A stretch of 64,000 nt of DNA from assembly GCA_026874595.1 (NCBI GenBank), contig CM049309.1:71530926-71594925 (forward strand). Reading direction: 5' to 3'. This document shows, piece after piece, positions 4,640 to 62,227 of the stretch. This stretch comes from Sipunculus nudus (lineage: Eukaryota; Annelida; Sipuncula; Golfingiida; Sipunculidae). A program made the translations under genes and the position numbers. The first letter of the stretch is position 1. Each line of letters begins with the position of its first letter. A model generated the notes under the pieces. The model saw only the letters and a program-made list of their open reading frames with translations, did not search any database and was not told the origin of the DNA.

Positions 4640-6418
4640 ATAAGTTTTAAGGTTCTTTTAAAATGCTAAGATGTTGTTAGTGGAACGAATATCTTCAGGA
4701 ATAGAATTCTATAGTGTTGGAGCAGCAACTGCAAAAGCACGATCACCACAGGTCACCAGCCTCGATCGTGGCATAAATAATTTTGTGGAAGATGATGATC
4801 TAAGTGATCGTACAGGCGTCTGTATATTCAACAGTTCCAAAGATAATGTGGAGCCAATTAAACCATGCAATGACTTATAAGTAGGCAGCAAAAACTTAAA
4901 CCTAACTCTGTATACTGTATCGGTAACCAATGTACCGAACAAGTGCAGGTGAAGTGTGTTCACACCTCTTCATCCCAAGTACAAGCCTAGCAGCAGCTCA
5001 GTACACGTTGAAGTTAATGAATATGAATTGCCGGTAACCCATAAAGTAGGCTGTTACAGTAATCAGTCCTGGACGAGATGAATGCGTGAACTATATAGCC
5101 TCTGTGGCGAGTTAAGTAGGAGATTTTCGAATATCATAAACAATCTTCAGTTGGAAGAAGGCTGATCGACAAATATTGTTGATTTGAGGTGTCACATTCA
5201 TGTTGTTATCAAATAAGACAACCAAGTTCTTGGCGGTATTAGCAAGATTTACCGTAGTATCCCCAATCACTATATCACTGGATTTGAGTTTGTAAGTTGC
5301 TGTTTAGTTCCGATGATCAAAAATTTAGTTTTATCATCATTGAGTTTAGGTTTGTTATGACGCATCCATGTTTTAACTTCTTGTATACACATATTTGCAG
5401 TTTGGTTAATGTCGGTTCCTCTGACAGACCGAATGGTTGGAACTGAAGATAAAGTTGCGTATCATCAGCAAATAGGTGATATTTGATACCATGTTTACGA
5501 ATGATCTCACCCAAAGGAGATTTATAGTGTGTGAATAGAATCGGGCCCAACACACTCCCCTGCGTCACTCCATAAATCAAAGGTTTGGGTTGTGAGTTTG
5601 TTCCTAGAATGGTAACACGTTGTGTTCGACCTGTTAGATAGGTACGAAACCAATTTAACACTGATCCACAAAGTCCGAAGCCCTTTGACAGTCGATTAAG
5701 CATAACCTGATGATCAATTGTATCGAACGCTACTGAGAGATCCTAAAGCAGCAGAAGGACAAGCTGTTGGTTATCCATGTTGGTTAATATTTCTTTTTGT
5801 ACTCTCAGCAGCACTGTTTCAGTGCTATGAAATGCTTTGTATGCAGACTGATATTCTGTGCAAAGTTCATTTGCAGCTATAGATACTCAAGAAGCCGTTC
5901 AGCTACCAGCTTCTCAATGAGTTTCGATACAAAGGCAAGATTGGCAAAGGTCTGAAATTTTTGTATATCACAGGTAGCCCAGGTTTTTTAAGCAGTAGGG
6001 TGACAAGCGCTTGCTTGAAATTGTCTGGAAAACAACCATTTCCCAAGGATGAATCCACAATTATGCAGATTGAAGGCAGCAGCACGTCTAGACATTCTTT
6101 CAAAATACAGATAAGAACTGGATTAATCGAACAAGATTTAGTCGGTGACTATTGAATGAGCTTTTCGATATCAGAATCTGGAATGTGTCGAAAAGGTTGA
6201 AAGCTGTTAATTTTGGCCTAAATAATGTCAACAGTACAAGATTGAAAGATGAAATTTCCAGATGAACCATTATCAGAGTCTAATGACCCTTGGATGTGTC
6301 TGATCTTTGTCGTGAAAAAAAACTTGCTGAAAGTTTCTACAAGCTCTTCTCTGTTGTTACAGGGCGGTAGACAAGACTCCTGTTTGATGTTATTGTTATC
6401 ATTATTATAAATTATCAT
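4640..6418 (-). mobile_element. Degenerate CR1/L2-like non-LTR retrotransposon (ORF2 remnant)
   Basis: On the minus strand, broken frames follow the order of a non-LTR ORF2. From 6103 there is an RT N-terminal block (LLLKKPGLPVIYKNFRP). At about 5830-5700 comes a YQSAYKAFHSTETVLL block and then DLSVAFDTIDH, with the motif A aspartates. At 5703-5317 are QGSVLGPILF and FADDTQLY, where FADD is the catalytic motif C. At 4963-4709 is a C-terminal LLPTYKSLHGL block and GDRAFAVAAPTL. Stop codons break it: one lies just before DLSVAFD, another replaces the expected Trp after AAPTL, and there are frame changes. It is a dead copy truncated at its 5' end. I place it in the CR1/L2 group from the HSTETVLL block; the clade is inference. 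Confidence 0.85.
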
Positions 6419-36247: not shown

Positions 36248-37930
36248 AGGGAATCTGATACTGGTTATAGATAGTGGGTAGACATAAAAGCTGCACTAAT
36301 ACTGGTTATGATAGTGAGGTAAGTATATAAGCCGTAATGATACTGTTTGTGGATAGTTAGACAGGCATTTAAGCAGTACTGCATCTGATTATCGATAGGT
36401 TGGCAAATATAAGCCGCACATATACTGGTTATGGATGGTTAGGTAGGCATATAAGCCGTACTGTTTATGGATGGTTATGGATAGTAAGGTAGGAATGGAA
36501 GCAGTACTGCCACTGGTTATAGATAGATAGGTAGGCATATAAGCCACATTGCTACTGATTATTGATAGGTAGGCATACTGCCGTACTGCTGCTGGTTATA
36601 GATAGTTAGGTGGGCATATAAGCCGTACTGCTACTGGTTATAGATAGTTAGGTTGGCATATAAGCCGCATTGCTACTGGTTATTGATAGGTAGGCATACT
36701 GCCGTACTGCTGCTGGTTATAGATAGTTAGGTGGGCATATAAGCCGTACTGCTACTGGTTATAGATAGTTAGGTTGGCATATAAGCCGCATTGCTACTGG
36801 TTATTGATAGGTAGGCACACTGCCGTACTGCTGCTGGTTATAGAGATTTAGGTGGGCATATAAGCCGCATTGCTACTGGTTATTGATAGGTAGGCATACT
36901 GCCGTACTGCTGCTGGTTATAGATAGTTAGGTGGGCATATAAGCCGTACTGCTACTGGTTATAGATAGTTAGGTTGGCATATAAGCCGCATTGCTACTAG
37001 TTATTGATAGGTAGGCACACTGCCGTACTGCTGCTGGATATAGATAGTTAGGAAGGAATGCAAGCAGTATTGCTACTGGTTTTAGATAGTTAGGTAGGCA
37101 TATAAGCCGTACTGCTGCTGGTAATAGGTAGGTAGGTAGGCATTCAAGCCGTACTGCTACTGGTTATAGATAGTTAGGTAGGCATATAAAACTTAATGAT
37201 ACTGATTATGAATACTCAAGTTGGCATATAAGCCTTACTGATACTTGTTAGAGACACTCAATTAGGTTTCATCGGCATTGACAGTGGAAAGGGATGGTAA
37301 TATAGGCACAAATCCGTACTGATACTTGTTATGGAAAAGTAGGCATGTATGCCGTACTGATCATGCTTATGGACAGAAAGGTACGCATATGATATGCACT
37401 GGTTATGGATAGCTAGGTAGGCATATAAGCCGTTTTGATACTGGTTATGGATAGGTTTGCATATAAGCCAGACTTATACTGGTTATGGAAAGTTTGGAAG
37501 GCATATTAGTCGAACTGATACTGGTTATGGTTACACAGGTAGGCATATAAGCCGTATTGATTTTTGGTTATGGATAGGCTTCATATAAGCCGCAATGCTA
37601 CTGGTTTTGGATAGTTGGGTAGGCATAAAGGTCGCAATGATACTGGTTATGATTACTTAGGTAGGCATATAAGCCGTAATTATATTGGTTATGGATAGTA
37701 AGGTTGACTTATAAGCCGTACCGATATTGGTTATGGATAGTTAGGTAGGCATATAAGCCGTACCGATATAGGTTGTGGATAGTTAGGTAGGAATACAAGC
37801 CGTACTAATTATGGATGGTTATGGATAGTAAGGTAGGCATATCAGCCGTACTGCTACTGGTTATAGATAGGTAGGCTTACTAACCGTACTGCTTTTAATT
37901 ATAGAAAGTTAGGTAGGCTTATAAGCCGCA
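36248..37930 (+). repeat. ~40-bp minisatellite, plus orientation, with a 121-bp higher-order unit
   Basis: The unit is about TACTGGTTATAGATAGTTAG followed by GTAGGCATATAAGCCGTACTGC. Between 36601 and 37010 three monomer variants repeat as a block of 121 bases (starts at 36601, 36722 and 36843); the next block start, 36922, is 79 bases on, so one monomer was lost. The outer monomers are more diverged. Confidence 0.93.
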
Positions 37931-42169: not shown

Positions 42170-43625
42170 CCCAGCTTATTTTCCTTAATCAGTATCTGTG
42201 CGGTTTACATGACAACCTAACTATCTAAAACCAATAGCAGTACGGCTTATATGCCTGCCTATCTAAAACCATTAGTATTACGGCTTAGAGCCTACCTATC
42301 TATAACCAATATCAGTACGGCTTATATGCCTACCTATCTGTAACCTAACTATCCATAACCAATATCAGAACGGCCTATATGCCCACTTAAGAAACCATTA
42401 CCAGTATCAGTGCAGTTTATATGCCTTACCAACTGTCATTAATCAGTATCAGTGCGGCTTACTCATATAAGTACCTCACTCTCCAGAAACATGATCAATG
42501 CAGCTTACACTCCTACTTACCCATAGCAAATATCAGTAAGGCTTATATGCCTACCTATCTATAACCAATATCAGTACGGCTTATATGCCTACCTATCTGT
42601 AACGAACTATCCATAACAAATATCAGAACCGCTTATATGCCTACCTTACTCTCCATAACCGATATCAGTACGGCTTATATGACTACCTGTCTATCCATAA
42701 CCAATATCATTACGGCATATATGCCTACCTAGGAAACCATAACCAGTATGAGGGCAGCTTATATGCCTAACCAACTGTAATCATCAGTATCAGTGCGGCT
42801 TACATGCCTACCTATCAATAACCAATATCAGAACGGCTTATATGCCTACCTTACTATTAATAACCGATATCAGTACGGCTTATATGCCTTCTTATCTTTC
42901 AATAACCAATATCTTTTCGGCTTATGTGCCTACCTATGTAACCATGACCACTGTCAGTTTGGCTTATATGTCCAACCAACTATCTATAACCAGTATCAGT
43001 ACGGCTTATATGCCTACCTTACCATCCCTGTCCAATATCAGTTCGGCTTATATGCTACATATCTTTTCATAACTAATATCATTATGGCTTATATGCCTAC
43101 CTTACTATCCAGAAGCAGGATCAGTCCGGCTTACCTGAAAACCTATCCATCGCCAGTATCAGTACGGCTTATATGCCTACATAACTATCCAAAACCAAAT
43201 TCAGTGGCACTCATATAAGTACCTTACTGTCGATAAACATGATCACTGCGGCTTACATGCCTACTTACCTATAGCAAATATCAGTACGGCTTATATGCCT
43301 ACCTAACTATCCCTTTCCAATTTCAGTAAGGCTTATATGCTACCTATCTTTTTATAACCAATACCAGTATGGCTTATATGCCTGCCTTACTATTTATAAC
43401 CAGTATTAATATTGCATACATGCCTACCTTACTATCGATAACCCTAGCAGTACGGCTTTTATGCCTATGTAACTATCCGTACCCAGTATCAGTGCGGCTT
43501 GTACGCCTACCTTACAACCAAATACCAGTATCAGTGCGGCTTATATGCCTTGGAACCATCAATCACCAGTACATTACGGCTTATATCCTTGTCTATCTTT
43601 CTATGACAAACTCATCCAGTTCGGC
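42170..43625 (-). repeat. ~40-bp minisatellite, minus orientation
   Basis: The unit is about CAGTACGGCTTATATGCCTA followed by CCTATCTATAACCAATAT. It is the reverse complement of the monomer at 36248-37930. Peptide frames with YQYGLYAYL-type repeats at 42793-43671 come from it. Confidence 0.93.
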
Positions 43626-45867: not shown

Positions 45868-46122
45868 TCTAAGCCGTAATTATACAGGTTAAGGACAGTA
45901 AGGTAGGTATTAAAGCCAAGCTGATACTGGTAAGGGTAGCAAGGTAGGAATCTCAGCCGAAGTGAGTAAAGGGGAGTAAAGTAGAGAACTAAACCTTACT
46001 GATACTGGTTATAGAAAGTATGGTAGACAACAGCCTTACTAATACCGGTCATGGGTAGTTAGGTAGGCATAAAAGCCTGACTGATACTGGGTTAAGATAT
46101 TTAGGTAAGCATATAAGCCTTA
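45868..46122 (+). repeat. Short ~40-bp minisatellite, plus orientation
   Basis: About six diverged monomers (AAGCCTGACTGATACTGG, TTAGGTAGGCATAAAAGCC), the same family as the two long arrays. It ends at the MITE. Confidence 0.85.
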
Positions 46123-46412: not shown

Positions 46413-46900
46413 AAGGGGCCTTTACACAGAATAGCTATCTTTCTGCCTCCCGTTTGCAACCACGAAATTTACCAGGTCGTCGAAGGAGGCTCAAAGAAGG
46501 CAGAATGGTTGCCTAGGTCGTTAAAAGGTGGTACACAGGAGTTTCAGACATCGCAATGAACGCCATGGTCGCCGTGAGTTTTTGAACATGTACATAACAA
46601 ACGCACAAAGGTCGCCGAGGTGGTGGGTTGCTCAAAGGTGGCTCAAAGGAGGCAGAAGGGAGGCACAGGCCGTGGTTTTAGAATCAAGGCAGAGTGGTCG
46701 CGCTGGTAGCACAGGGGAAGCAGAGGGAAGGCAGGCAAGAAAATGCCATAATGCTGCATTTTGGGATGTTCAAGGGAGGCACAAGTATCGCTGAAACAGT
46801 TATGGAGCAATTACACAGAAACAGGATTTTCTGGGGTTAGGGGATCATTGAGCGTCCTGGTCATTTTTTGGTTGCTCAAGGGTGGTTCAAAGGCGGCCGC
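46413..46900 (+). other. Region upstream of the LECT2-like gene
   Basis: Purine-rich, with recurring GGTCGCCG, GCTCAAAGGTGGCTCAAAGG and GGAGGCAGAAGGGAGGCAC motifs. No protein feature is credible in the open frame at 46528-46794. It could hold promoter or 5' UTR sequence. Confidence 0.35.
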
Positions 46901-46964
46901 CCTTGCCAAAAAGTGTGGGGGTGTTTGGGGGATATATACCTCCTCCCCTATATTGACGCCCCTG
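46901..46964 (+). repeat. Short dispersed repeat, copy 2 (partner at 14889-14958)
   Basis: CCTTGCCAAAAAGTGTGGGG, ATATATACC and CCTATATTGACGCCCCTG lie 31-94 bases before the start codon of the LECT2-like gene. Confidence 0.7.
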
Positions 46965-46994
46965 TATGCTCTATTGATTTGCAGAAACCCCACG

Positions 46995-47301
46995 ATGAGG
47001 GCGTGTTCATTTCTGTGTTTTGGGATCATCGTGGTGATCCTTGCAGGCACATCTGACGGATTTTGGTTTTTCTGCCCTGTATGCCGCTGGGAGCCTTGGA
47101 CCAAATGGATCGGTTGTTACAAGTGTGGACAAGATAGGTGGGGAAGACGCTCCCGGGAACCGGCGAGGTACTGCTCCAGCAAGTGTGATCAACGGGATAG
47201 TTTCGAATACAGATACTGTGTTCATCCATGTAAAAACAGGGGCAAGAGTGTATTGGGTCGTTGTTCGTGTCCCCCTGGGTTCAGTGGTCCCTGCTGTGAA
47301 A
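46995..47301 (+). CDS. LECT2-like gene exon 1 (signal peptide, TSP1-like, EGF-like)
   Basis: The ATG at 46995 has A at -3. MRACSFLCFGIIVVILAG is a typical signal peptide. WEPWTKWIGC, CGQDRWGRRSREPARYC and YRYCVHPC look like a divergent TSP1 repeat; CSCPPGFSGPCC is an EGF-type C-terminus. The donor GAAA|GTAATT is weak; exit phase 1. The frame could also run on to 47372 if unspliced. Confidence 0.85.
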
Positions 47302-50300
47302 GTAATTATTTTTCGTTTTCTTCAGGCCACGCCAAAAATAATTGTACGACAGACTCGGGGGTTAAGCATTAGGAGCCAGAAGGCGATTCTTTTTCCGTTA
47401 ATAACTTAATTAGCGGTCGAGATAATTTGAAATAATGTTAGCTAGCACAATGATACACTTATGAAAGACAATTCTATCAATGGTGCAGATGAACCACAAA
47501 TTAAGCCCCTGTATATGACACAGGTCTATATTTGCATTGTCAATTTTTAAGGGACTGAGACAAGAGCACCAATGACCAGTATAACCATAGTTGGACTTAC
47601 ATTTGACACCTCCATGATCCGGGGCAAAAGGGGCGGCGTTTCCGTAGAAAAGTTATTTTTTGCGTGGCCTTAAATAATATTGTTGAATTAAATTCATATA
47701 AGTATTAAAGTTTTAAGAGTGAAAGGTTAAATGTAAAAAAGAACTATTGATGTAAGGCCTGAAATGTTAATATTTAAAAAAAGCTTTTTTATGATAACTT
47801 CTGAAGGGAAAATTGGAAGAATTTTGCACAATTGATGTAAAGGACGGAAATATTAAGATTTAAACATATTATACGAAAACAACGGAATATAGATTTGTTA
47901 AAATAGACAAGGCCTTCAGTCTTGAACCTCGACTATTCTGTTAATGTTGGTTATATTGTCCTATGACGTCTTGTCAGATTCTAGGTGTTCCTCCGCTGGG
48001 GGCTCTTGCCAGCAGCCCCAACAAATCTGTCAAGGAACCTATGTCAAGGGCCCGTGTGGCGACTCGGACAACATGCAGTGCTGTATGCCTGGCAAGGGTA
48101 AGTTAATACCATTCACTTATTCGGTCCATATTCCCAGGTTCATTGTGCATGAATGGCTGTATATTCGTGAATATTCCTTGATGACGTTCCAAAATTCGGA
48201 CCATGTGCCGAAATGTAATCGAAATACAAGACGACGAGAGGTTACGCGCTTGCCGGAAATCTCAGACCCAGATTTGTCATCAATAAGACAAAGAGGAAGA
48301 AAATACAGGGTTGGTTTTTAAAGATTGGACCAATATTGACAAAGTTACGATGGAAATTATAATTTGACGTGTTTTCATGACCTTGACTTTGACCTGTTTA
48401 AAAATACCCATACAGCTTCAAGAAATCGTTCCGATATACGATGGGTGAAAGTAACAACGTGATTCCAGGTAAACTGTGGCCTGTAGAATGCTGTATAACA
48501 GAGACAAGAAAGCAAAATTTACAACAAATGACAAACAGACAGACATATTGAAAAGTGACACAAAGCTGAGACCAGCTGACTACACTGAGTTATGCAGAAG
48601 ACGAAGGTGAAAAAAATGAGCCAATGTTTGTGAAGATAGGGCCAGAATTGACAAAATAATGAGGAAAGTAACATTTGAAGTGTTTCGAAATTTGAGACAA
48701 GATGACAGAACTATGTAATAAAGAAGACACAGTGGAAAAAAATAAGTTATATTTCATGTAATTTTGGTTAATAGTTTTGGAGATATGGCACAAAAATGAT
48801 ATGTTTTGTATGCAGCGCCCCCGAGCGGTAGCAATAATCGATTCTTCATTGGCCATTTCCGAAATGCCCTAATAATTTCATGAGATTCCGTTCATAATTT
48901 CGTTATTTTGTGATCAAACACACAAACGCACACGCACACGCGAACAGAGTCGACGAAGTCAATAACGCGGAGGCAATTATGTGACCAATAGGTCAGATGG
49001 TTTGAAATAGATTACAGTGAATCAGAGTGAATGGTTTGTTTGTCTTGGATGGCTCTAGAAATAATGCGAGTTGGCATTCAGAACCCGCCATTGTTTGGTT
49101 TTATGTATGTTTAGCATAATCTCAAACAGAACTGACAGTATCGCCTAGCAATGTGTGGCCAATCAAAGATAAGGGTATAATATTAAAACTTTGTTGTAAA
49201 TGTCCAAAAGACACTTCAGGGCTTATATAGATGATACAAAAATTAACAAATGGACATTCGTTATGAATTACCAAGCAAGTCTCGTGACATGTGATAAAAA
49301 ATGTCATAAATGATGTAGAGGAGCTTTCAGCAGATATTAGTTCTGCCGCGACATATCGATATATAAGCAAAATGAAATATAAAAAAATGAAATATGCATA
49401 AAGCATAAATCTTAAAGGGGGGGGGGGTATAGTCTTCTGAGGTAATTATGTATGTACCAGAGGGTCTAGTGGGGTAAATTTTCTACCCCACATGAGAACG
49501 GAATACCTTACCCCATAACAAAAGTTATTTATACACAAAACCCCAGGAGAACTGTTGACTTGCACAGTACCAAACAATTAATGGGGACACAAAAAAAGAG
49601 TACGCTTTAACTTCTGGGGTGTTCAAGCGTGTTTTTTATCAGATAGATGAACATCAAGAGTGGTGGATCCAGAAATTCGAGAACAGCGGGGGGGGGGGGG
49701 GGGGCGCTAATATACTGGGTTAGCAGTTGATGAGTATGAATATAAAGCGATTTATATATACACATGCAATATATATAATTTCAATATACATAATATATTA
49801 ACTTTTTTATTTCTCCTATATGAATAAAATCTAAAGCCACGTTCATTTGGAAGGGTAACTTTATAATACAGGAACACTGGGGGCGGGGGGAGTGTACAGG
49901 AGGGGATGTACCCCTCCGATATTGAGAAAACTTTTAAATGTGCAAAGTAATCAGGACATTTTGAGTCACCTTTCATAAACAATATGACGATTTTCTGTTT
50001 CTCACCAACTTTTTTCTTACATTTCGTAATAATTAACTTAATTAATATTCAGAGGCTCGGGGTTAACGTCTGCCCTGCTATAATATTTATATATCCTTCA
50101 AAATTTGGATATTAATTGGAATGTCCAAACATTCAATCGTTTGTAAACATGCTGATATAAATATGGTGAAATATGCATCTAACATAATTTAAATGCAATG
50201 GTAATATAATTGATATGTTCAAGTCGCATGTTAAACTAAGCATTTTACCGGCTTCTGTGGTCTAGGCAGCGCACCGGACCCTTAATACCACAGATCGTTG

Positions 50301-53194
50301 GAGTATCAGCCGAGGACATTAGATTTTTCACGGTCGACCCGGCTGAGCTCTCTGCATGTAGGCCAATGGGAAAAGCTTGCCTCACTCACGAATGCGAATT
50401 CCGGGGGGGGGGGGGGGGGAGTTTTGTCTTATGCCTCAGCAGACATTTGGATGCTATTATTTAATCACGGGGCTGTTCATATCTATCCTCCACTTATAAA
50501 CAAAAGTGTAATAGACTGTGGATAGATTAATAATCCTATTGTTAAAGAATATAAACAAATATAATAAAAATGAAATTAAATACAAATTACATGGGAAAAG
50601 ACACAGATAAATGAGTGATGCAACAATTCTGGATTCGCCACTGTGCATTTGCATCGACATGTATATGAAACGCCATCTTGTGCATATTTCATAAAAACTT
50701 CAGATGCAAATGCAGTAAAGAGAGTATAACGGCTATTGTTAACTGTAACGTGACATTGAGACCATAGATGAAGGTGACATTAAAAGTGATAACTCAACTA
50801 CATCATGGGGAGACCGCATAATATGGTACGATTCTATCCACATGTCCCATTCATATCCCATTAATAAACACAATTTGAAGGCTACAGAAATGCTTACCTA
50901 GTTTTATAGCTTAAATGGGTCACATACCTTTTTTTGGTGGGTGTGCTACCTTGCTGTACTGTAAAATGAGAACAACTGACCTGCATACCTAAGATTTCAT
51001 TTCAGAGAAATGCAGTGAATGATCAAACCACGAAGGTGGCAATAAAATCTGCATATAAAGGTCAAGGTCACTCAAAAGTTAATCAGTTTGAGAGAGTAAC
51101 TGGTCGATATTTTTCATAACCAAATCCACTGACCTTTGTGACGTCATTATTATGTTGTAAGCAGCTTTCGCTACCATGGACATGGTAGACCTTCTGCGTA
51201 GGAGCGTTTTGGTGGCTCATTATAATAATAAGGTTAATTTGGGCTGTGGTAGATATGTCAATTTCCTTCAATTTCTTTAAATTATCAGCATTATTGACAT
51301 ATTCAATTTGGTTGCCCCGGAAACCAAACAGTATGTTAAAATCACTATTAATCTTGTGCCATTGTCAGGCATATTTGTTTTATACAGATGAGTGTCTTGA
51401 AAAATGTTGGTATTCACTGTCCTTTGTTTTGGGAATGTTAGATGTATATACTGTGATTATAGTAAATATAATGGCTTCATCAAAATTTTGTATATCAATG
51501 CAATATGTGCAGATATTTTTTTATTTAATTGAAACTTTCCTGATCATAATTACTGCTTTTGGAATCTATACAGCCAATCAAATTAAAAAAAAAAAACCTC
51601 TAAATTGTGAGGAGAGCTCGAAATACAACTGGTCGCCAATGAATAGCCTACCAAGACCAGGAACCAGCAGATGTGTAAACTGGTATTACAATTTTCCGCC
51701 ATGCATATTCATAAATAACAAAATGCAAATACTATATATGCAAATTAGATCATAAAGTTGATCTTTTTATTTTTCAACCTTTTAAAGGTTGATAGCAATT
51801 GCCCCCGTACAGCACCAGGGGTCCTCGTGGCTAATAGACATAATCCTGACCATTTTTACCCAGGCACTGTGGTGACCAGAATGAATAATATTACACTATT
51901 TTAACTTTATTGGGTATAATTGTACAGAATATGAATATTTTGTAAATTATTTATGTTATTTCCACATGGTAATAAAACAGCTTTTTGGGTTTGAAAACTT
52001 TTATTGTAGAAAATGGTCGGCTGTGAGAAAATCCTCATTCGTTAAAGACTAATATGTTCTTCAAAACCAGTAACATGATAATTGACATTACGGTAGGTTT
52101 TGCATGCATATTCATTAAGATGCAACTATTAGATATGCAAATAAGGAACACATATACATTGACTCTTTATGTATCCTTTCATGAGAATAAATTGTAAGAT
52201 GAAGAAGCCCAATTAAGATGAAGAGAACATGCAGTCACTAAAAATTGCACTTAAATTTGCATATTTTTGCATATATCAGATTAAGCAATTTATGTTGTGC
52301 CAGGAAACATTTCATGTAAGAAAATCCTCTCATTTTGTTGGGGTTTTTTTTCAACTTCAAATGTTAAATTTCAACAGAGGTCAATCATTTTAATACATTC
52401 ATATAAATAATGTGATTGCATTATTAACAAATGTGGGAATAGAAATTGGCTCATATTTTAAAGAATATTACCAACCCGATACTTTAATCATGCATTTTAT
52501 AATGAAGAGCCCAATCTTGATTTCTGGTCGAAATCAAGATGGCGGCAACCAAAGGGTGCGAATTTTGGGGGTATATTTTTTTAAAGATGCCTAGGGGCAG
52601 TAGTATCCCTGTGCAAAGGTTTTGAGGATTTCTGGTGTTTAGCCGCTGTACTATTTGATACATCTGCTGGAGTATCATAGGACAAAAAGGTCTAGGTATT
52701 GACTATCTATGACATGGCATACTTAACACAAAAGTTTTGAAATAAGGATAAACTTAGTTTCATGAAGGAGGGGTGTATGTTTATTACTGCAAAATTAACT
52801 GCTTACAAATATAGATACAACAGTAATCTAAACTATGATTTGAACTATGAACTAAAGCTTAAGCAAGTGTTATATTGGCTTAAAAGACTCAAACAAGATT
52901 ACCTGTACTGTCGTGTGTTCGACAAGATGAGAATATGTATGTCATACCTGTGGCGTCACTTATATGTTGCTCCCCGTCTGAAAGAAACATACATATATAA
53001 TACTATATATAAATATTACATATAATCAGATACATGTGTTTATGTACACACACATTATATAGAAACATTTAATCATAATGGTCTTTTTTATTTGTTTACA
53101 AAAAAACTTAAGCGTATCGTCAATACATATCGGGTATCGCTTTATGTGTATCGCAATGCGTATTGAACCTGAATAGGCTGTCAGATACCCTGTC

Positions 53195-53248
<54 letters not shown>

Positions 53249-56200
53249 TTTGTTTCTGGTCGATATCCCGTAATAATTTGACAATTTTAACAAAAAAAGT
53301 TGATCCTAACGAAAACGTTTTATTTATCTATATTTGGTTTTATTGATATTTACATTGTGTTTGAATTTCGAATATCCGATATGTGACTGTTAACAATAGA
53401 TAATTCCTTTAAAAAATAGGCAAGAAAACGCTGATCTCTCGCACACAGGCTATTATAGTTTTGTTTATATCCGTGTGTTTATAACATGTGGTGTGCCGCC
53501 AAACTAATCCAAACACATGAAATGAGGACATCTGGAAGCAATTTAGACGAACCAGAATATTGCAAAAGGTGTTTTACAACAAGTGAACTTTTGACTTTCT
53601 GTTTGTCAACAATGGCCCATGTACTTTGTTTACTAACAACTTGTAGATAAAAAAAAAATCAAGTTCACAGAGTAAGCTGAAAATCGCTAGAATTCAGCAG
53701 AATAGGTAGGTGAATAGCTGGTTTTAATATTTAAGGGCAATCGCAAACTCTGTTATGGTTGCTGCCTTAAAGAACAATCAAAATAGCATTTACCCTTGGT
53801 GTTTTGGTCCCTTAATCCAGGGTCTGTTAAACAACTTATTATTGTGTGTTACCTAAAATGAGTTGTCTCTGTTCTTGACAGATCCCAAGTGTACCGCTCA
53901 TGGTGGTTCTTGCCAGCTGACTAATCAAGCCTGTGACGGGACATATGACAGGGGCCTTTGTGACGGCCCCGTCAATAGAAAATGTTGTCTGCCCGGCCTA
54001 GGTAAGTGAAACGGTTTTATAGGTCTTGCATCAGGGCGGTAACTTTTTGTCTGGTGTGTTAAGGCAACAAGGTGTAGAGTGAAGCTGCGGTAGGGTGAAG
54101 TTCAGAACAAGCACACTTTGGCGTAAATTTTATTCTCATATAATAAAATTGTGTGGAACATGACTACATGTAGGTGCGCCGCAATCAAAAGAAGGGCATC
54201 GGACACAGCGCAGCGGGGAATCTAGTAACAGATTTCTCTTTGTTCACTTCCTCCGTAAGATTTTCATATGTAATTGGATATTTCGATAACAGTTGAAATT
54301 AATTATATTTTGAAATATTTTTATAAAAGATTTTGAGTTTTTTTCAACCTTTATAACTCTCCAGTCTAAGCATTTGATAAAGAACATGAATTCCCCCCCC
54401 CCCCGGTGTGGGCAAATCTCGCCAGGTCAATATAACATTTATTTATTTCATCTAGATGGAAAAAGAAGAAGCATCTGGCATGTCTGACTCAGTGTTAGAG
54501 TGGAACTTTTATCATGAGACAAAAGCTAGCAACAGACCGTGGAAATCCGTTATGTTATCCGTTACGTTGTCTGTTACCAATCACAAGTCTACATCTAGTA
54601 TCACCGATAACAAAATTGCAGCAGAACTGATGTGTACTAATGTCACTTCTTTATAATGCCTCCGTAGATTAAAAGTGACCTTTGCTTTTACATATTTGTC
54701 ACAGATATTACATATTATTACTAGAATGGGTATATGCCTCATTCAAAATACCAAATATATAACCTAAGCATGATGTTATGGACTCCTACAGTGAAAACCG
54801 TGTAATGAGACCGTCTGTGGGACTGGCCAAAAGCGGTCTTATTTTACAGGTGGGCCAATCAGACAGGTCAGCTGTAACCATTGTGAATGCTTTCAGTTCA
54901 CTGGAGGGTTTTAAGATCAGCTGAATGAAAGTCATCTGAGCTATAGCGATCAGTCTTAGTCCGTTGTCCGTCCGTTAACAAGGCTCAAATCGTAACCGCT
55001 CTCCCTATAAACTTCTAACTTAAAATCCATAGAGGTCCATGAAATTCTCCATGGAAAGCTGAAATTAGATCACTGTGACCTATATCCTGCGAGCTATGGG
55101 GCTCAAAAATACCCAACAACAATTATTAAAAAATTGATACAAAAGCCCATGTATCTAACTAAAACATCGGTTGCCATGATGCTTTCCATGCATTATTTTC
55201 TGAAGGTTGATAGCGCCACCTGTATGTTTCTAATTATTACGCATTATTTTTTTTATATTTGAGACTTTCAGATGAAGAAGTCCATGGGTTAACAGGGCAC
55301 AAACCGTAACCGTTAGACCTAGATACGTTTAACTGTACATCATGGGAGGTCCTAGAGCAATTTTCCTGGAAACCTGAAATTAGGTCAGTAATGAGCACCA
55401 AGTCAGACGTGGCACAAATTATATCTAGTTGCCCTAGAATCTTCTATCATAACATCCAGGTAAGTCTTGGGCAAATCTATATGATATTAAGTCATAGTGA
55501 TCTATATTGTACGAGCTACTAGCCAAAAACATAATTTTAATCACCCAGTCAGGCTGACGGGGCACAAATTGTATATGATAGTCCTAGAATCTTCTAAAGA
55601 ACATCCAAGGAAGTCTTGGACAAATCTCCATGACACCTGAAATTAGGTCGCTGTGACCTATTTAGGGCTCGAAAGTGCCCCCCCCCGAATAATTTAAAAA
55701 ATTGCTACAAAAACCCATTTATCTAATTAATTTATGAATTGTCACAATTACTTCCAGGCTTATTGTTATTGAGTAGTTCATCATTTCCTGACAACTGATG
55801 GTGCCACCTATATTTTTCCAATTTTTACCCATTATTGTTCCCTATTTTTAAAACCACATGAAGCAGTGCGTCCGTTAACAGGGCATAAACCGTTACCATT
55901 AAATCTAGAGGTCCTAGGAAAATCTCCGTAGAAACCAGAAATTAGGCCATTTTGACCAATATTTTGAAAAATATAAGCCAAAAAATATGATTTTGTGAAC
56001 CCAGTCAGACAGACGAGGCAAAAATGTATCTGCTAGCCTAAATTCTTCTAACATAACATCCAGGGAAGTCTTTGACAATGATGTCCATGGAAACCTGAAA
56101 TTAGGTAATGGTGACCTATATTTTGCCAGCTACCAGCCAGAAACATGATTTCAGGCACCAAGGTAGTCAGACAGGGCACAAAAGTTAACTATTGCACTTA

Positions 56201-57341
56201 GAATCTTCAAACTTTACATCCATTGAGGGCCTTGAAGAATCTCGCTGCACATCACTGTCACATATTTTCTCTTGGGTTAAGGTCTACGGAAAAAATTCAC
56301 AAAAGGAGAACCTTGGAGAGGGATCCCAGATACCGCTTTACTAGAGTGATCGACGAGTCCACCATCTACCATACCATACAAAAACCGTTAGAACTCAGGG
56401 AGGTCTTTGGGAAAACTCTGTGGAAACCTGAATTTAGGTCATGGTGACCTATAGTCTGCAAGGCAGTGCAAGCTATGTTCAAAAATATGATTTGAACACC
56501 CTATAGGACAGGTGTGCATGATTGGTTACCGTTGGACGTAGAAACGTCTAACTTATCATCTGGGGAGTTCCTGGTAAAATCTTCTTGGAAAGCCTTAATA
56601 AGGTCACGGTAAACTATTGCCAAGGACTATTGGCAAAATGCATGATTGTGAGCACTCTTGGAGTCATTTTACCCATTGCTCAAGCTTCCTTGAGTTCAGC
56701 TCGGAGTCATGTCCAATGAGTCACTTGTTTCAATAGGCAGGTGGTCTTTCAGACAAGTTCCATTGTACTTGTTTCCAGGGACTAATCAGCAGATATGTGA
56801 AGGTAACGTGGGTAACACCATCAGAGGTCAGGATCCAGCAGGGGCTGGATGGTGGCACGCGAGTAGAACGTAAGTGTTTAATCATCCATGTCTGTTCGTT
56901 TGTCTGTTTGCCTGTTTGATACTGCTTCATTGACATTCTTCTATGAATTAGGAGAGCAAAAATGAACCCGGCCAACAGAATTCTCAGAATAAGCCCACAC
57001 ACACGTACTCGTAAGAAATATCTAAAAGTTTGTCTGTGGACAGCTACTCGGGTAATTGGTCTTTATAACAACTGGACACAAGGTAATCGTTAGACATCAT
57101 CATAGTGTATAATTACTCATGGGTATCATTAAGACGAACTTGATTTATAACAGTGGGCAAATATTCGCTATGCTCAGCAAACGCTAGATTCAGTATACAT
57201 TTAATACTAATAAACCATAAATAAGTTTTACATTCCGTATTCTGCCTAACAAGTGTACAATTGTCAAGTAACAACTGTTTTTAAGAATGTAACGAGAGAT
57301 AACAAAGGCGTGATAAAAACAACGACGTCCATTAAATATTT

Positions 57342-57413
<72 letters not shown>

Positions 57414-58925
57414 GTATTTCCTTGAATAGACGCCCGGGCGTTTATTTTTTTCAAACCCTGCTTTGACCCGGCGTCTAAACAAGGCCGGCTTCTATTTAAG
57501 GCCGGCGTTTATTAAAAAATACATTATCAGGCTCATCAGACAAACTAAAAAAATAGAACACGCCGAAACAATAAACCCGCCGGTCACTACTTAGGGACAC
57601 AATTGAAAACATTGCCGGTACACGGATTGTGTTTACGAAATTTCCTTTGATGTCATAGGGATATGGGAAACGCGCAATCTCCACAATTACGCACCATAAT
57701 AAGAATTAACGGAGAATCACAGCGAGAGATTGCAGTTGTCCACAAGAATCTGTCCGCGCGGGCCTCAGGTGTTTCATGTGGCTGTTCCATTTATTTTACA
57801 CCGCGTGTTATTTCCTTCTGAACACGGGTGGCTCTTCCATGAACTTTTCTCCGCGTACAACTGGTAACAGTGGTTCCATCGACATACGGGGGGTCGGTAC
57901 GGCATAGCGTAATTCATTGTCATTACACTTTCCTCCCGTCAACTATTCAACTGATTCAGCTCGACACAGCGTAATCAAGTGTTTCTGACCTGGTTTATAC
58001 TTAACACGGTTGGCTCTCCCATTAACTGTGCACCGTGGAGAACTGTTAATATTGGTTCCATCGAAAAACGGGGGGCTGGTACATATAACGGCACTGCGTA
58101 ATTCGTTTTCATGACACCATCCGTCCGACTTTTAACTGATTTAGCTTGAGACAGCGTGTTGAAGCGTTTCCGACCTTGTATATACTTGTATGTGACATTT
58201 ACTGCCGGGAATATTTCTGAATATAGAGTAATACTATTTTCAACTTTAAAGTTTATCTCAGAAACCTGGTGCTGGTAACAATGGGGACGCACTTAAAGCG
58301 CTTAAAAATGAACGCAAGGAGCGTAATTTGGCTTGACAGTAGCTACAAATTGTACCGCTTGAAACCATCATTTGGTGTCTTCATGCTACACAAGAAATAT
58401 GTGCCCAAACGTATTTTAACAGTTCTGTTCAACCATCCGTTAGGTATACTTTTACCGTACCAAGATTAACCTCTTGTATCAGGCGGTACTATTTTTATCT
58501 AGCTTGACAGCAGTGATAGTGTTAGCTTCTCACTGCTGACGTATTTGTGGAGCGTTTATTAGGATCGGTGATCGGCTTTAATCATAAGGACGGATCGGGA
58601 ATATTTGGTGGTCCCTCGTGCATTGAAACAGGCATTCACGTAAGATAAAAACATATTTACAGAAGAATTAAATATCAATAAAACTTAAATCGAAATTCAT
58701 ACAACAATCTTTGGTCGATTTGACTGGTAAATACACCAATTATAGTGAAGGGATAAGACATCTGGCGACAAACATGGAAACTACTCTGACACCAGGCCTG
58801 TGAACAAGACCGGCGTCTATTTAAGGCCGGCGTTTATTTTTCTGGGACACTGTTTTACCCCGGCGACTAAACAAGGCAGGCGACTATTTAAGGCCCGGCG
58901 TCTGATCAAGGAAATACGGTATATA

Positions 58926-58987
<62 letters not shown>

Positions 58988-61900
58988 CGTGTAAATATGT
59001 GTAATGAGACAAGGGATCGAGGCCATTTTCAATAATACTAGGTGATAAACCCGGTAACCGGGACTTTAATCGAGAATGGGGGATGTATTAAATGAAATGA
59101 AGAATGTTGGATCACTTATTTTTATTGTAAAAGTTCAAACAAAATATAAATTTTCAGTGGGATGCTGTCCCAAAAAGATATGTACAAATATTCTTACATT
59201 TATTTAGTGGCGCTGCGTCGTGGCAAGAAATGCATACATCGTTTTTTGTTAACCTTGAAGACGAATCGGAATTGGACGCATTTGCAAAAGTTTAGACCTA
59301 TAAAGGGTAGATTGATGAAGATATAAATGATCAATTGAATGTATGTTTTAAGGCATGGAAGCTGTTCCTGAAGAAAGAAACGGGGATCTGTATTCCTCGT
59401 TAGTTGCAAGGCGGAACCAAGGGGGTCCAGACCCCCTCCCCCGTTTCAGCCGCCACACTCTTTCTGAAGGGGTCAAGAACAATATGTGGACCACCTACCC
59501 CCCCCCCCCCCCCCCCCCGGCCTCCCTTTATCCGAAACTTTTAACCTATCCTAGGTTTTGTAGGACTAAATGATGTATTTCAGGGAAACCACTAAAAGTA
59601 TGGAATAATGTGTTTGTAGTGACTTTAATTGATGTATTTAAAGTGGAAAACAACATAAAATAAGGAATCAAAGTCTTGATAGACGGTTATCTGTATTGTG
59701 CACTGTTTCCCCTGATTATCGGCCGGTTAATGTTCTTGTTAACTTTATTTCACATTCTCCCAACAGACGGTCTATGAATGCCAAGGATAAAATCCTGGCC
59801 ACATTCATTCACGCAACACGCTTTTCGCCGATAACCTGAGGATTGTAATTACAAAAATGAAGGAAATGGAGCAATTATAGAGTATGCATTGAAAATATAA
59901 CGGTATTTGTCCGTGAAACATATTGATAAACTAGTGGATCTGTTTGCGGTGTGATATCCGTGACGTGGAATTGTAAACAGAAACAGAACTTATACACGAG
60001 CTCCCTTGAGTAGTTAAAGTGGTACATCTGTTTCGAGAATTGTTAAATTAAGATGAAAATGCAAGGTGATAGTGCAGCGCCAAATGTTGCGGTCACTTCA
60101 ACATCAAGCAAAATGATTACCTGAATGAATTGTGAGATTAACCATATTTGCTGACATAAGAAATGAGAGCCAAGGGAACTCGAGACACATCTTTTCACAT
60201 TTACTGACCATCAAGTGGGTCAGATATTTGGTCAATTGTTAGGCCATACATGCTTAATTAAATCCATCACCGACAGCAGGGGTTATTCATGTGCACTACA
60301 GTCATAAATCCTGCGCTGGAGATTTCTGTGTCAGGATGTCTTAGTCCCTCCAACAGACGCCAGGTGCCGCTACTGCTTTGCTATGCACCAGTTCTGGTCA
60401 TTGCCCAGGGCAGTTCGGTTGTTCTTGGTGCATGGTAGCCTCAGCCTAATTTAATAACCACGAAAAATCACTCAGAAGGATGTGTACATTAAAAATTATT
60501 TCTTCTAAAATCGGCGAGGTCACTTCGGGGACAATTACCTTTAATATGAGTTATAAAACAAAATCATACGCAACGGGGTTTCAGAGAGTATTGAGAACAA
60601 AAGTGGACCGAATTCCTTTTACAATTCTTAGATAACAGAGTACAGAGGTACTAGAATTCGAAACATAAATAATTTGAAGCTGCGATTCAGAAAAAAAGTT
60701 TTGTTTGTGTGTGGCTTAAGTAGATTACATCAGGTTTGTCACACCTAAAACTTGGAATGCAGACGGTTTAATTGTCTCTATACAGGTCTGGACTACACAA
60801 GGGCATCGACATTGAGTGCGCCGATGGATCAAAAGTGTATGCTCCAATAAGTGGTAGGCTCGTCAGGAACTTTCCGTACCCGAAGGGAAAAGAGTGTATT
60901 AACAACGGCGTGCAAATTGGCGACAGATCAGGTGTGTCCCTATTTGTTTTTTTAAAGACCATGTATATTTAACAGATTTTCAAACTTTAAACATAAGGGT
61001 TAAAAATAATATCAAGGAACAAATGATAATAACACAGTTGTTTTATTCAACAGTTACAGTAAAACATAGCACTGGAATCTTTTATGGAAATTTTATTATC
61101 TTATTTTCTGAAAGAAATATCCGAACGAATAAAGCTCTGAATTATAAAATTTCCGCGAAAAGTAAAAAGTACAAAAGAGGAAGAGGGTCAATATTGATGA
61201 GCGGTGCCTGAGAAATCACCATTTTTTCTCAGATTTTTACTTAATATAACTTAATAATTTACATGTTTATATTATTCATGACAACAGCCTACTCTTTAAG
61301 AACTCATCCCAGAGGGGTATCTTAATACCTATTATCGGCTCGGGTCGTGCGATCTTTATCAGTTAAAGTAGGACTGGTATCGAAATATATGTTAATGTTG
61401 ATTTTTGGCAACGTTTTAAAAACATATTTTCATAAAAGGGTAATCTTAGAATTATTTAGATAACCGAGCCCTGAAACAATTTAGTCAGCCAATAACAGAA
61501 GATTTCGCCTATCGTCTCGAATAGGTCTTCTAAAATATACTGTCACCAGTTTCCCTTGATAAACTAGTGCCTTTATGGCTATCTAAAATCTTCGTTCCGT
61601 GCGCGATATGTGGGATAATGTCGAAATATAGTAATCAATCTTTGTTATGATAAAAGAGCCTGTGAAACAAAGCCCGCGCCATGACGCAACTTGGTTTATG
61701 CAACTCCAGAATCTTTGTTCCCTCGTTTACTTTGACATACATATAAAGAAAAACATGTAAGAAAACCTGTTAGGTGTATTACAAAATTATGTGAGGGATT
61801 GTATCTATTGCATCCCTTGTTGTCAGAGCAATCGATAATTGTATCAAATCTTGTCGTAGCCATCGATATTCACATTGTTTATTGATTGTCTTTTTTTCAG

Positions 61901-62227
61901 AGCCAACCATACTCGTAAGGTTTCTCTTGCAGGATCCATATAATAATATTATATAAATATACATGTATAACGTCAGCTGTAGTACTTTTTCCTTGCTTCC
62001 AATCATACTTTCTTCGTCTTTTAGAGACCTCTGTTTCTCTGTGGTATGTGGATCCTGATCCCAGCAAGATAAATACCATTGTGAGGTATGGTGACGTGGT
62101 GGGGACACATATCGGACTGCACTGCATTTACCCTGAACACATGACGGATCATGTGCACGTGACACTGTGGAGAAAAGGCACGAAAGTCGACCCCACTGAG
62201 GAGCTAGGTGGAGCAGACCCGCGGTGA
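46995..62227 (+). CDS. Secreted TSP1/EGF/2x six-Cys/LECT2-like (M23 fold) protein, 6 exons
   Basis: Six exons join in phase to 987 bases, 328 aa. Order: signal peptide (1-about 22); TSP1-like W-x2-W-x2-W with cysteines and an R-rich strand (32-78); EGF-like end C-x10-C-x-C-PPGFSG-C (79-101); six-Cys module 1 (106-138) and module 2 (146-178), both C-x6-C-x6-C-x8-C-x7-CC; and a LECT2-like M23 domain (about 186-320). In the last, HKGID gives zinc ligands H217 and D221, and DHVHV gives H304 and H306. Y269 (LWYVDP) sits where active M23 enzymes have histidine and where I recall vertebrate LECT2 also having lost it. So it probably binds zinc but may not cleave. Likely extracellular; a recognition or immune role is inference from LECT2. 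Seven-exon forms with a 5' UTR exon are possible: TTTGCAG ends at 46984. Confidence 0.88.
47324..47670. mobile_element. MITE with ~20-bp TIRs (AGGCCACGC-AAAAATAA)
   Basis: Left AGGCCACGCCAAAAATAAT faces right TTATTTTTTGCGTGGCCT. It is 347 bases long, non-coding, and lies in intron 1 of the LECT2-like gene only 22 bases after the exon 1 donor. Confidence 0.8.
47978..48097 (+). CDS. LECT2-like gene exon 2 (six-Cys module 1)
   Basis: Acceptor is CTTGTCAG and donor AAGG|GTAAGT. The exon is 120 bases, phase 1 to phase 1. It encodes C-SSAGGS-C-QQPQQI-C-QGTYVKGP-C-GDSDNMQ-CC. Such GGSCQ...CxGxY..G.C...CC units also occur beside cell-wall hydrolase domains in other invertebrates and fungi, as far as I recall. 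Confidence 0.85.
48110..48850 (+). repeat. Dispersed repeat, copy 2 (partner 25108-25320)
   Basis: Starts TTATTCGGTCCATATTCCCA and holds CCTTGACTTTGACCTG-type sequence and AATCGATTCTTCATTGGCC. The longer of two copies; in intron 2 of the LECT2-like gene. Confidence 0.6.
49845..50355 (+). mobile_element. Dispersed repeat with decayed tRNA-like head, copy 2
   Basis: Matches 19295-19775: CAGGACATTTTGAGTCACC, ATTCAATCGTTTGTAAACAT, GCATTTTACCGGCTTCTGTG, GGTCTAGGCAGCGCACCGG and TTCACGGTCGACCC. Its B box has decayed. Confidence 0.6.
50356..53881 (+). other. LECT2-like gene intron 2, rest: no gene seen
   Basis: It holds a G run (50403-50419) and a (TA)n tract (53197-53245). A 169-codon hydrophobic frame at 51246-51755 has several possible membrane segments but no recognisable motif, and AT-rich DNA gives such frames by chance. 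Confidence 0.35.
53882..54001 (+). CDS. LECT2-like gene exon 3 (six-Cys module 2)
   Basis: Acceptor is CTTGACAG and donor CTAG|GTAAGT. It is also 120 bases, phase 1 to phase 1. It encodes C-TAHGGS-C-QLTNQA-C-DGTYDRGL-C-DGPVNRK-CC, exactly 40 residues after module 1, as expected from exon duplication. No methionine-started frame marks it. Confidence 0.88.
54930..56660 (+). repeat. Satellite-like tandem array, plus orientation
   Basis: It opens AGTCATCTGAGCTATAGCGA with TCCGTCCG. Seven or more diverged units follow with GGCACAAA..GTAACC, CATCCA.GGAAGTC and GGAAACCTGAAATTAGGTCA. Spacing alternates between about 150 and 320 bases. It fills intron 3 of the LECT2-like gene and is the inverse of 41000-41790. 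Confidence 0.8.
56779..56869 (+). CDS. LECT2-like gene exon 4 (start of LECT2 domain)
   Basis: Acceptor is TGTTTCCAG. Residues 183-212 plus two bases: GTNQQICEGNVGNTIRGQDP, then WWHASR. It matches the opening of LECT2 (ICAGKSSNEIR..D). Donor is GAAC|GTAAGT; exit phase 2. No methionine-started frame marks this exon. Confidence 0.85.
57345..57410. repeat. (TA)n microsatellite flanking the transposon (left)
   Basis: A pure TA run up to the base before the terminal inverted repeat. Confidence 0.95.
57411..58920. mobile_element. Non-autonomous DNA transposon, 1.5 kb, inserted in (TA)n
   Basis: The left end ACCGTATTTCCTTGAATAGA and right end CTGATCAAGGAAATACGGT are inverted. Next to each end are repeated GCCGGCGTTTATT, GGCGTCTA and ATTTAAGGCC sub-terminal motifs in mirrored order. 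The inside has a tandem duplication of about 185 bases (57810-58180; TGGTTCCATCGA, TGTTTCTGACC against CGTTTCCGACC) and no transposase. Flanks are TA repeats, consistent with a TA target. Confidence 0.85.
58921..58987. repeat. (TA)n microsatellite flanking the transposon (right)
   Basis: A TA run with one TTTA and one TACA interruption, the right-hand continuation of the tract at 57345. Confidence 0.95.
58988..60785 (+). other. LECT2-like gene intron 4, rest: no gene seen
   Basis: It holds a palindrome CCCGGTAACCGGG (59049-59061) and a long C run (59498-59518). No exon-like block was found. Confidence 0.35.
60786..60931 (+). CDS. LECT2-like gene exon 5 (M23 core, HxxxD)
   Basis: Acceptor is CTATACAG. 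Residues 213-261 plus one base: GLHKGIDIECADGSKVYAPI, GRLVRN, then INNGVQIGDRS. H217 and D221 are the zinc ligands; the C224/C250 pair may form a disulfide as in LECT2. Donor is TCAG|GTGTGT; phase 1. Confidence 0.9.
62025..62227 (+). CDS. LECT2-like gene exon 6 (M23 end, HVH, stop)
   Basis: Acceptor is GTCTTTTAG. Residues 262-328: LWYVDPDPSKI, RYGDVVGTHIG, then TDHVHVTLW with H304/H306 and the tail GTKVDPTEELGGADPR before TGA. RYGDVVG is the M23 turn seen as KKGEKLG in LECT2. Confidence 0.9.

Follow-up and report, generated by a model that had tools for sequence, protein, structure and literature searches.

A Sipunculus nudus locus predicted to encode a LECT2 domain behind a TSP1-EGF-like unit and two rusticalin-type cysteine-rich repeats

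The vertebrate cytokine LECT2 shares its fold with a peptidase that acts on bacterial walls. A locus in the genome of Sipunculus nudus raises a question about this domain: what does a LECT2 domain do when it stands at the end of a longer, cysteine-rich protein? We analyzed a 64,000-nt stretch of DNA, hereafter the window, that occupies positions 71,530,926-71,594,925 on the forward strand of contig CM049309.1 (assembly GCA_026874595.1, 1.43 Gb in 153 contigs). The explanation that best accounts for the whole, and that we favor by a modest degree, is that the locus encodes a multi-domain, probably non-catalytic LECT2 innate-immune humoral factor of the bacterial-wall-recognition kind, and not a free chemokine.

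The gene model has six exons on the plus strand, between window positions 46995 and 62227, and its predicted product is 328 amino acids long, followed by a stop codon. All five introns are GT-AG, with phases 1,1,1,2,1, which bears out the proposal of a first-pass annotation that six phase-compatible exons yield a protein of this length. The features of the model are as follows.

46983-46984, plus strand: possible splice acceptor (TTTGCAG, ten bases 5' of the ATG), from reading the sequence
46995-47301, plus strand: exon 1, with the start codon, a signal-peptide-like stretch (about residues 1-22) and a divergent TSP1-EGF-like unit (about residues 24-103)
47978-48097, plus strand: exon 2, the first rusticalin-type cysteine-rich repeat (CRR), Cys106-Cys138, from its cysteine spacing
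53882-54001, plus strand: exon 3, the second CRR, Cys146-Cys178, with length and phases as in exon 2, from its cysteine spacing and 49% identity to exon 2
56779-56869, plus strand: exon 4, start of the LECT2 domain (ICEG..IRG..GWWHASR), with a 73% identical stretch in a second gene on contig C1
60786-60931, plus strand: exon 5, LECT2 core with HKGID (His217, Asp221), with a 69% identical stretch in the C1 gene
62025-62227, plus strand: exon 6, end of the LECT2 domain with HVH (residues 304-306) and the stop codon, with a 71% identical stretch in the C1 gene

The putative acceptor hints at an upstream 5' UTR exon. The joining of exon 1 to exon 2 is predicted from phase and the start codon. Mean hydropathy reaches 2.7 at residues 4-18, whereas no 15-residue stretch from residue 26 onward exceeds 0.7, and the product is predicted to be exported. 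Very probably, then, the locus specifies a secreted protein with LECT2 in its last third and two CRRs in its middle. Inside the 64-kb window, a tblastn search for additional gene copies returned only the resemblance between exons 2 and 3, the remaining rows having E 0.18 or worse. Rfam (at the gathering score), ARAGORN, and NCBIfam gave no match.

The last third resembles LECT2. HKGID and HVH, which had been read as marks of the M23/LECT2 fold, lie at residues 217-221 and 304-306, and the fold assignment holds: Pfam Peptidase_M23 matches residues 216-318 at 29.2 bits (cut-off 28.7), and phmmer aligns residues 184-308 with human LECT2 at E 6e-18, with 38% identity over 121 columns. In a PDB search, the two top matches are LECT2 chains (E 6e-18 for residues 184-308; E 9.6e-18 for residues 187-308), and the next M23 protein is bacterial, at E 0.078. 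His217, Asp221, and His306, which we take to be the zinc ligands, align with those of the human LECT2 motif, so that HxxxD..HxH is retained. Searching the S. nudus genome with the PF01551 profile gave 38 matches, none of them on a contig numbered below C61; neither LECT2 gene is included, because the domain is split across three exons. Exon 4 has no DNA match in phages, and a literature search for invertebrate LECT2 with M23 found no paper.

The middle of the protein had been described as two defensin-like cysteine modules. There are indeed two modules: exons 2 and 3 are each 120 bases long, have equal phases, and encode repeats that are 49% identical, an agreement that is most simply explained by exon duplication. 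They are not generic, however. Both fit the published rusticalin CRR pattern, Cx6Cx6-7Cx8Cx7CC, and HHpred placed that repeat near a beta-defensin-like fold (PMC6339383, available text). The spacing C6C6C8C7CC occurs twice in the window versus never in 200 dinucleotide shuffles. Among 20 aligned CRR copies from the same genome, a subset of all copies picked by a looser pattern, 16 match the published spacing, both window copies included; the remaining four have one extra residue between the third and fourth cysteines. The window pair has no Pfam match, and a profile built from the 20 copies has none in the PDB. With one bounded pattern, none of four candidate stretches in viral contigs and none of 89 in prokaryote genomes was confirmed as a CRR.

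In the available text of a survey of 382 CRR proteins, 374 are eukaryotic, and 258 have no recognized partner domain (PMC7379824). Bacterial-wall-cutting domains occur in 63 of the 124 that do; those named are phage lysozyme (26), Amidase_2 (17), and M15 (6), and the partners include 16 prokaryote-type domains. Neither "M23" nor "LECT2" appears in the main text of that survey, "LECT2" does not appear in the main text of PMC12855814, and "M23" does not appear in the available text of PMC6339383. No CRR-LECT2 fusion is named in the searched text of these papers.

Does the CRR-LECT2 order belong to one gene? A search of the S. nudus genome with the whole product (E up to 10) returned at least 104 rows. 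Among the matches listed, at least six are LECT2 exons (three in the window, three on C1), at least 78 are CRRs, and at least 20 are front-end rows. The CRR rows listed, many of them weak, comprise 2 in the window, 3 on C1, 27 on C13, 14 on C16, 31 on C6, and 1 on C14. LECT2 exons occur at two loci among these matches, and CRRs precede LECT2 at both.

C1:80871910-80877223, minus strand: second CRR-LECT2 gene, with three CRR exons, then a proline-rich linker, then three LECT2 exons; splice sites canonical, phases as in the window gene

The C1 gene is 56% identical to the window product over window residues 106-328. The 142 aligned LECT2 codons give dN 0.20 and dS 1.09 (Nei-Gojobori; dS is saturated for exon 4 alone), and therefore the LECT2 exons are under purifying selection. 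Because C1 shows the CRR-LECT2 order with equal phases, it is the strongest argument for placing exons 2-3 and exons 4-6 in one gene. The alternative is that two neighboring genes have been joined, such that exon 1, by itself or together with exons 2-3, codes for a short secreted TSP1-EGF/CRR peptide, and exons 4-6 are part of a distinct LECT2 gene whose first exon is unseen. Introns of 5.8 and 2.8 kb part exons 2, 3, and 4, and unspliced exon 1 reads through to a stop (ORF 46752-47369), as such an arrangement would allow. Against it stand the independent C1 locus and the consensus donor that ends exon 3 in phase with exon 4. For exon 1 alone, the counterevidence is weaker, consisting of phase, the start codon, and one other TSP1-before-CRR locus in this genome (L036, where a TSP1 exon scoring 29.0 bits precedes a CRR by about 600 bases). 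Overall, we judge the two-gene arrangement to be quite unlikely.

If the six exons form a single gene, is its LECT2 domain an enzyme? Active M23 enzymes have a catalytic histidine in a YxH motif. In the window protein, the stretch where that residue is expected (residues 218-289, a position judged by eye) contains no histidine, leaving the M23 catalytic set incomplete. In the bacterial M23 of locus L001, a YGH is seen; the automatic alignment does not match that motif to the window domain. The catalytic histidine thus appears to have been lost, and for that reason the domain most likely binds rather than cuts. LECT2 has likewise been described as lacking the catalytic histidine (PMC9662197, available text). 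One could suppose that the protein is nonetheless an active M23 peptidoglycan peptidase in which another residue replaces the lost histidine, a supposition that the kept H..D..H motif and the purifying selection would suit. We consider it very improbable, given that residues 218-289 lack a histidine, that the C1 counterpart, by eye, has none except one in NHGVQ, and that no activity is known for LECT2.

The front end is more divergent. It had been called TSP1/EGF, and that designation survives in part: Pfam TSP_1 does not match exon 1, and EGF_2 scores 19.1 bits, below its cut-off of 22.1, but the tryptophan, cysteine, and arginine pattern is present. Moreover, exon 1 is 39% identical (E 8.6e-6) to a 447-aa ORF on contig C10 that contains five TSP_1 stretches (E 3.7e-35), and the alignment retains the WxxW, CxxCG, and CxC..F.G.CC patterns. 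This pattern and these relatives in the same genome support a divergent TSP1 unit in exon 1. As far as can be told from the sequence, the proposed domain order of TSP1/EGF, cysteine modules, and LECT2 holds. The TSP1/EGF part looks variable, because the second LECT2 gene keeps the CRRs and has a different upstream exon. Specifically, no TSP1-EGF exon was seen within 7.7 kb upstream of the C1 CRRs, the nearest front-end row on C1 among the matches listed is about 20 kb off on the opposite strand, and none of those matches reveals another gene that combines this front end with LECT2. The exons upstream of the C1 CRRs instead resemble stanniocalcin, with scores under the cut-off of 23 (13.5 bits for the nearer exons and 20.3 bits for a pair farther up). 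The last of these exons has a phase-1 donor, compatible with the CRRs.

An exon 46% identical to the last of these C1 exons, also ending in phase 1, adjoins a single CRR at C13:16.95 Mb that runs into a stop codon. By itself, the C13 exon matches no Pfam family. Weakly stanniocalcin-like exons directly ahead of CRRs at these two loci (L039 on C1 and L026 on C13) form a possible fusion family.

What follows CRRs elsewhere in the genome bears on the setting in which the window protein may act. Reading CRR stretches and downstream exons as single genes, as strand and order suggest, two of seven other stretches would lead into PGRP-type amidase exons, one into a weak M15-like domain, one into a lipase, and three into nothing recognized. 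On C13, Amidase_2 exons lie on the same strand 5.8 kb behind the stretch ending at 16359065 (exon scores 53.9 bits) and 1.1 kb behind that ending at 16438289, the latter pairing being judged from position only. Amidase_2 has 24 matches in total, 12 of them on large contigs, and 10 of these 12 have no nearby CRR among the matches listed. The M15-like case, at C13:18.50 Mb, consists of two exons behind a CRR that score 19.6 and 19.4 bits, below the cut-off of 25, and a PF13539 search of the genome at E 0.001 gave no match. The lipase exons follow an array on C16; one scores 41.4 bits with PF00151 and a second 21.0 bits, below the cut-off of 27. Reading about 7 kb by eye revealed no recognized domain for either the C6 array (19.18 Mb) or the C13 CRRs at 18.49 Mb.

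C16:49149000-49156800, minus strand: lipase exons behind a CRR array (L047), PF00151, same strand as the array
C6:19178910-19197725, minus strand: tandem array of CRRs, at least 22 CRR rows, spaced roughly 890 bases apart, partly L040

Because one of the seven stretches precedes lipase exons and three precede nothing recognized, CRRs are not tied to wall enzymes. Threonine-rich open frames lie downstream of the C6 array and could belong to a large secreted tandem-repeat protein. Fusions of phage-type lysozymes with PGRP and other genes occur in bivalves (PMC5303276, available text).

How might such a protein work? We propose a secreted layout of signal peptide, TSP1-EGF-like unit, two CRRs, and LECT2 domain, in which splicing, secretion, loss of catalysis, binding targets, and processing are all predictions. 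The LECT2 domain, with its H..D..H zinc-motif residues kept and its catalytic histidine apparently lost, would most likely bind rather than cut. The CRRs, accessory repeats often found ahead of peptidoglycan-cutting domains in eukaryotes, probably stabilize the precursor, and they may be cleaved as the protein matures or help it stay attached to bacteria. For the TSP1-EGF unit, anchorage on matrix or hemocyte surfaces is the probable role. It is possible that, as the first-pass annotation suggested, the front end targets the LECT2 domain to microbes or matrix.

That annotation had left the choice between innate immunity and development open. TSP1-EGF units are matrix-type domains, and stanniocalcin is a hormone-type family. 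Both the front end and the stanniocalcin-like exons of C1, below cut-off as they are, would suit a developmental or matrix protein in which LECT2 acts as a signaling ligand, as in vertebrates, with no bacterial link. The recognized partners of CRRs, in contrast, are often bacterial-wall domains, both in print and at three stretches here. We hold the developmental explanation to be an unlikely one, though a more serious contender than the two-gene arrangement. Given the published CRR record and these three of seven stretches, an antibacterial or wall-sensing setting is likelier than a purely developmental one; of the earlier proposal, the innate-immune half gains from the CRR partners elsewhere, and the view of the repeats as generic modules does not stand.

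The origin of the arrangement invites a more speculative proposal. When it first appeared in animals, LECT2 could have been a wall-cutting M23 domain of bacterial origin placed behind CRRs, along the path suggested for other domains that CRRs carry, M15, amidase, and lysozyme among them; the window gene would keep that ancestral layout after losing catalysis, and vertebrate LECT2 would be a stripped-down remnant, a hydrolase turned cytokine. The missing catalytic residue and the two CRR-LECT2 genes fit such an origin. We offer it tentatively and think it rather improbable as it stands. The promiscuity of the CRR speaks against it, and late domain shuffling is an equally possible source of the CRR-LECT2 order. 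LECT2 behind CRRs at both listed loci of one animal genome provides a concrete route by which a murein hydrolase could become an immune factor.

Several other features of the assembly and the window deserve mention. Bacterial-type M23 and Amidase_2 genes with near-equal scores recur on contigs C61-C90, C99, and C115 (loci L001-L008 and L042-L045). These contigs are 0.2-3.3 Mb where length is shown, GC is 34-36% at 12 loci, and on C89 the matches come back at intervals of about 2.04 Mb, a spacing that would arise if a single circular genome had been traversed more than once. We read them as a bacterial associate, symbiont or contaminant, assembled along with the host. A phage-type lysozyme candidate was set aside, its sole PF00959 match lying on C66, a contig that also bears bacterial-type M23 genes. 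Within the window, one apparent minisatellite family with a unit of about 40 bases occurs at 36256-37875, 42216-43550, and also 45975-46090, with opposite orientations flanking 38-42 kb. Intron 4 holds an element that is probably a DNA transposon or MITE. The remaining features are these.

57411-58920, strand not assigned: element of about 1.5 kb in intron 4, whose ends share the inverted repeat ACCGTATTTCCTTGA, set in TA microsatellites
5320-5742, minus strand: reverse-transcriptase fragment, LINE-like by eye, RVT_1 43.9 bits
24400-24753, plus strand: possible protein-kinase exon, 13.2 bits, below the cut-off of 23.1

Comparison with known systems places the window protein. Vertebrate LECT2 (human, PDB 5b0h) can be aligned over the whole domain and shares the HxGxD..HxH motif. 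The aligned human stretch holds five cysteines, of which two have counterparts (Cys189 and Cys224) and three do not; the sixth human cysteine lies outside that stretch, and the window product has no cysteine after residue 295. Cys250 and Cys295 are new here, being absent from human LECT2 and common to the window product and the C1 gene. Since the conserved vertebrate cysteines are incompletely matched, we class the product as a LECT2-domain protein and not as an orthologue of vertebrate LECT2. Vertebrate LECT2 is also short, at about 151 aa in Nile tilapia (PMC8174566, available text), whereas the 328-aa window protein has about 180 residues, mostly cysteine-rich, ahead of its LECT2 domain. 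The contrast previously drawn with a short, single-domain vertebrate protein therefore holds as far as the sequence goes.

The C1 gene is the closest counterpart, with CRRs followed by LECT2 and equal intron phases; it differs in having three CRRs, a proline-rich linker, stanniocalcin-like exons upstream, and no TSP1-EGF exon in 7.7 kb. The placozoan (Trichoplax) PLys, a CRR and GH23 lysozyme protein, likewise has CRRs N-terminal to a bacterial-wall domain. Unlike the predicted window protein, PLys is an active enzyme, and, in the available text of its description, the repeat domain is shown to stabilize the lysozyme, lower its activity, and be removed on maturation (PMC12855814). Finally, rusticalin and rusticalin-like proteins share with the window protein a signal peptide, two CRRs with the cysteine spacing seen in the window, and then a wall-type zinc-peptidase fold (PMC6339383, available text). 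Their C-terminal domain is of the MD/M15 kind, similar to the phage A500 L-Ala-D-Glu peptidase, whereas that of the window protein is LECT2/M23; and while no TSP1-EGF unit is described in front of the rusticalin repeats in that text, the window protein carries a TSP1-EGF-like unit there.
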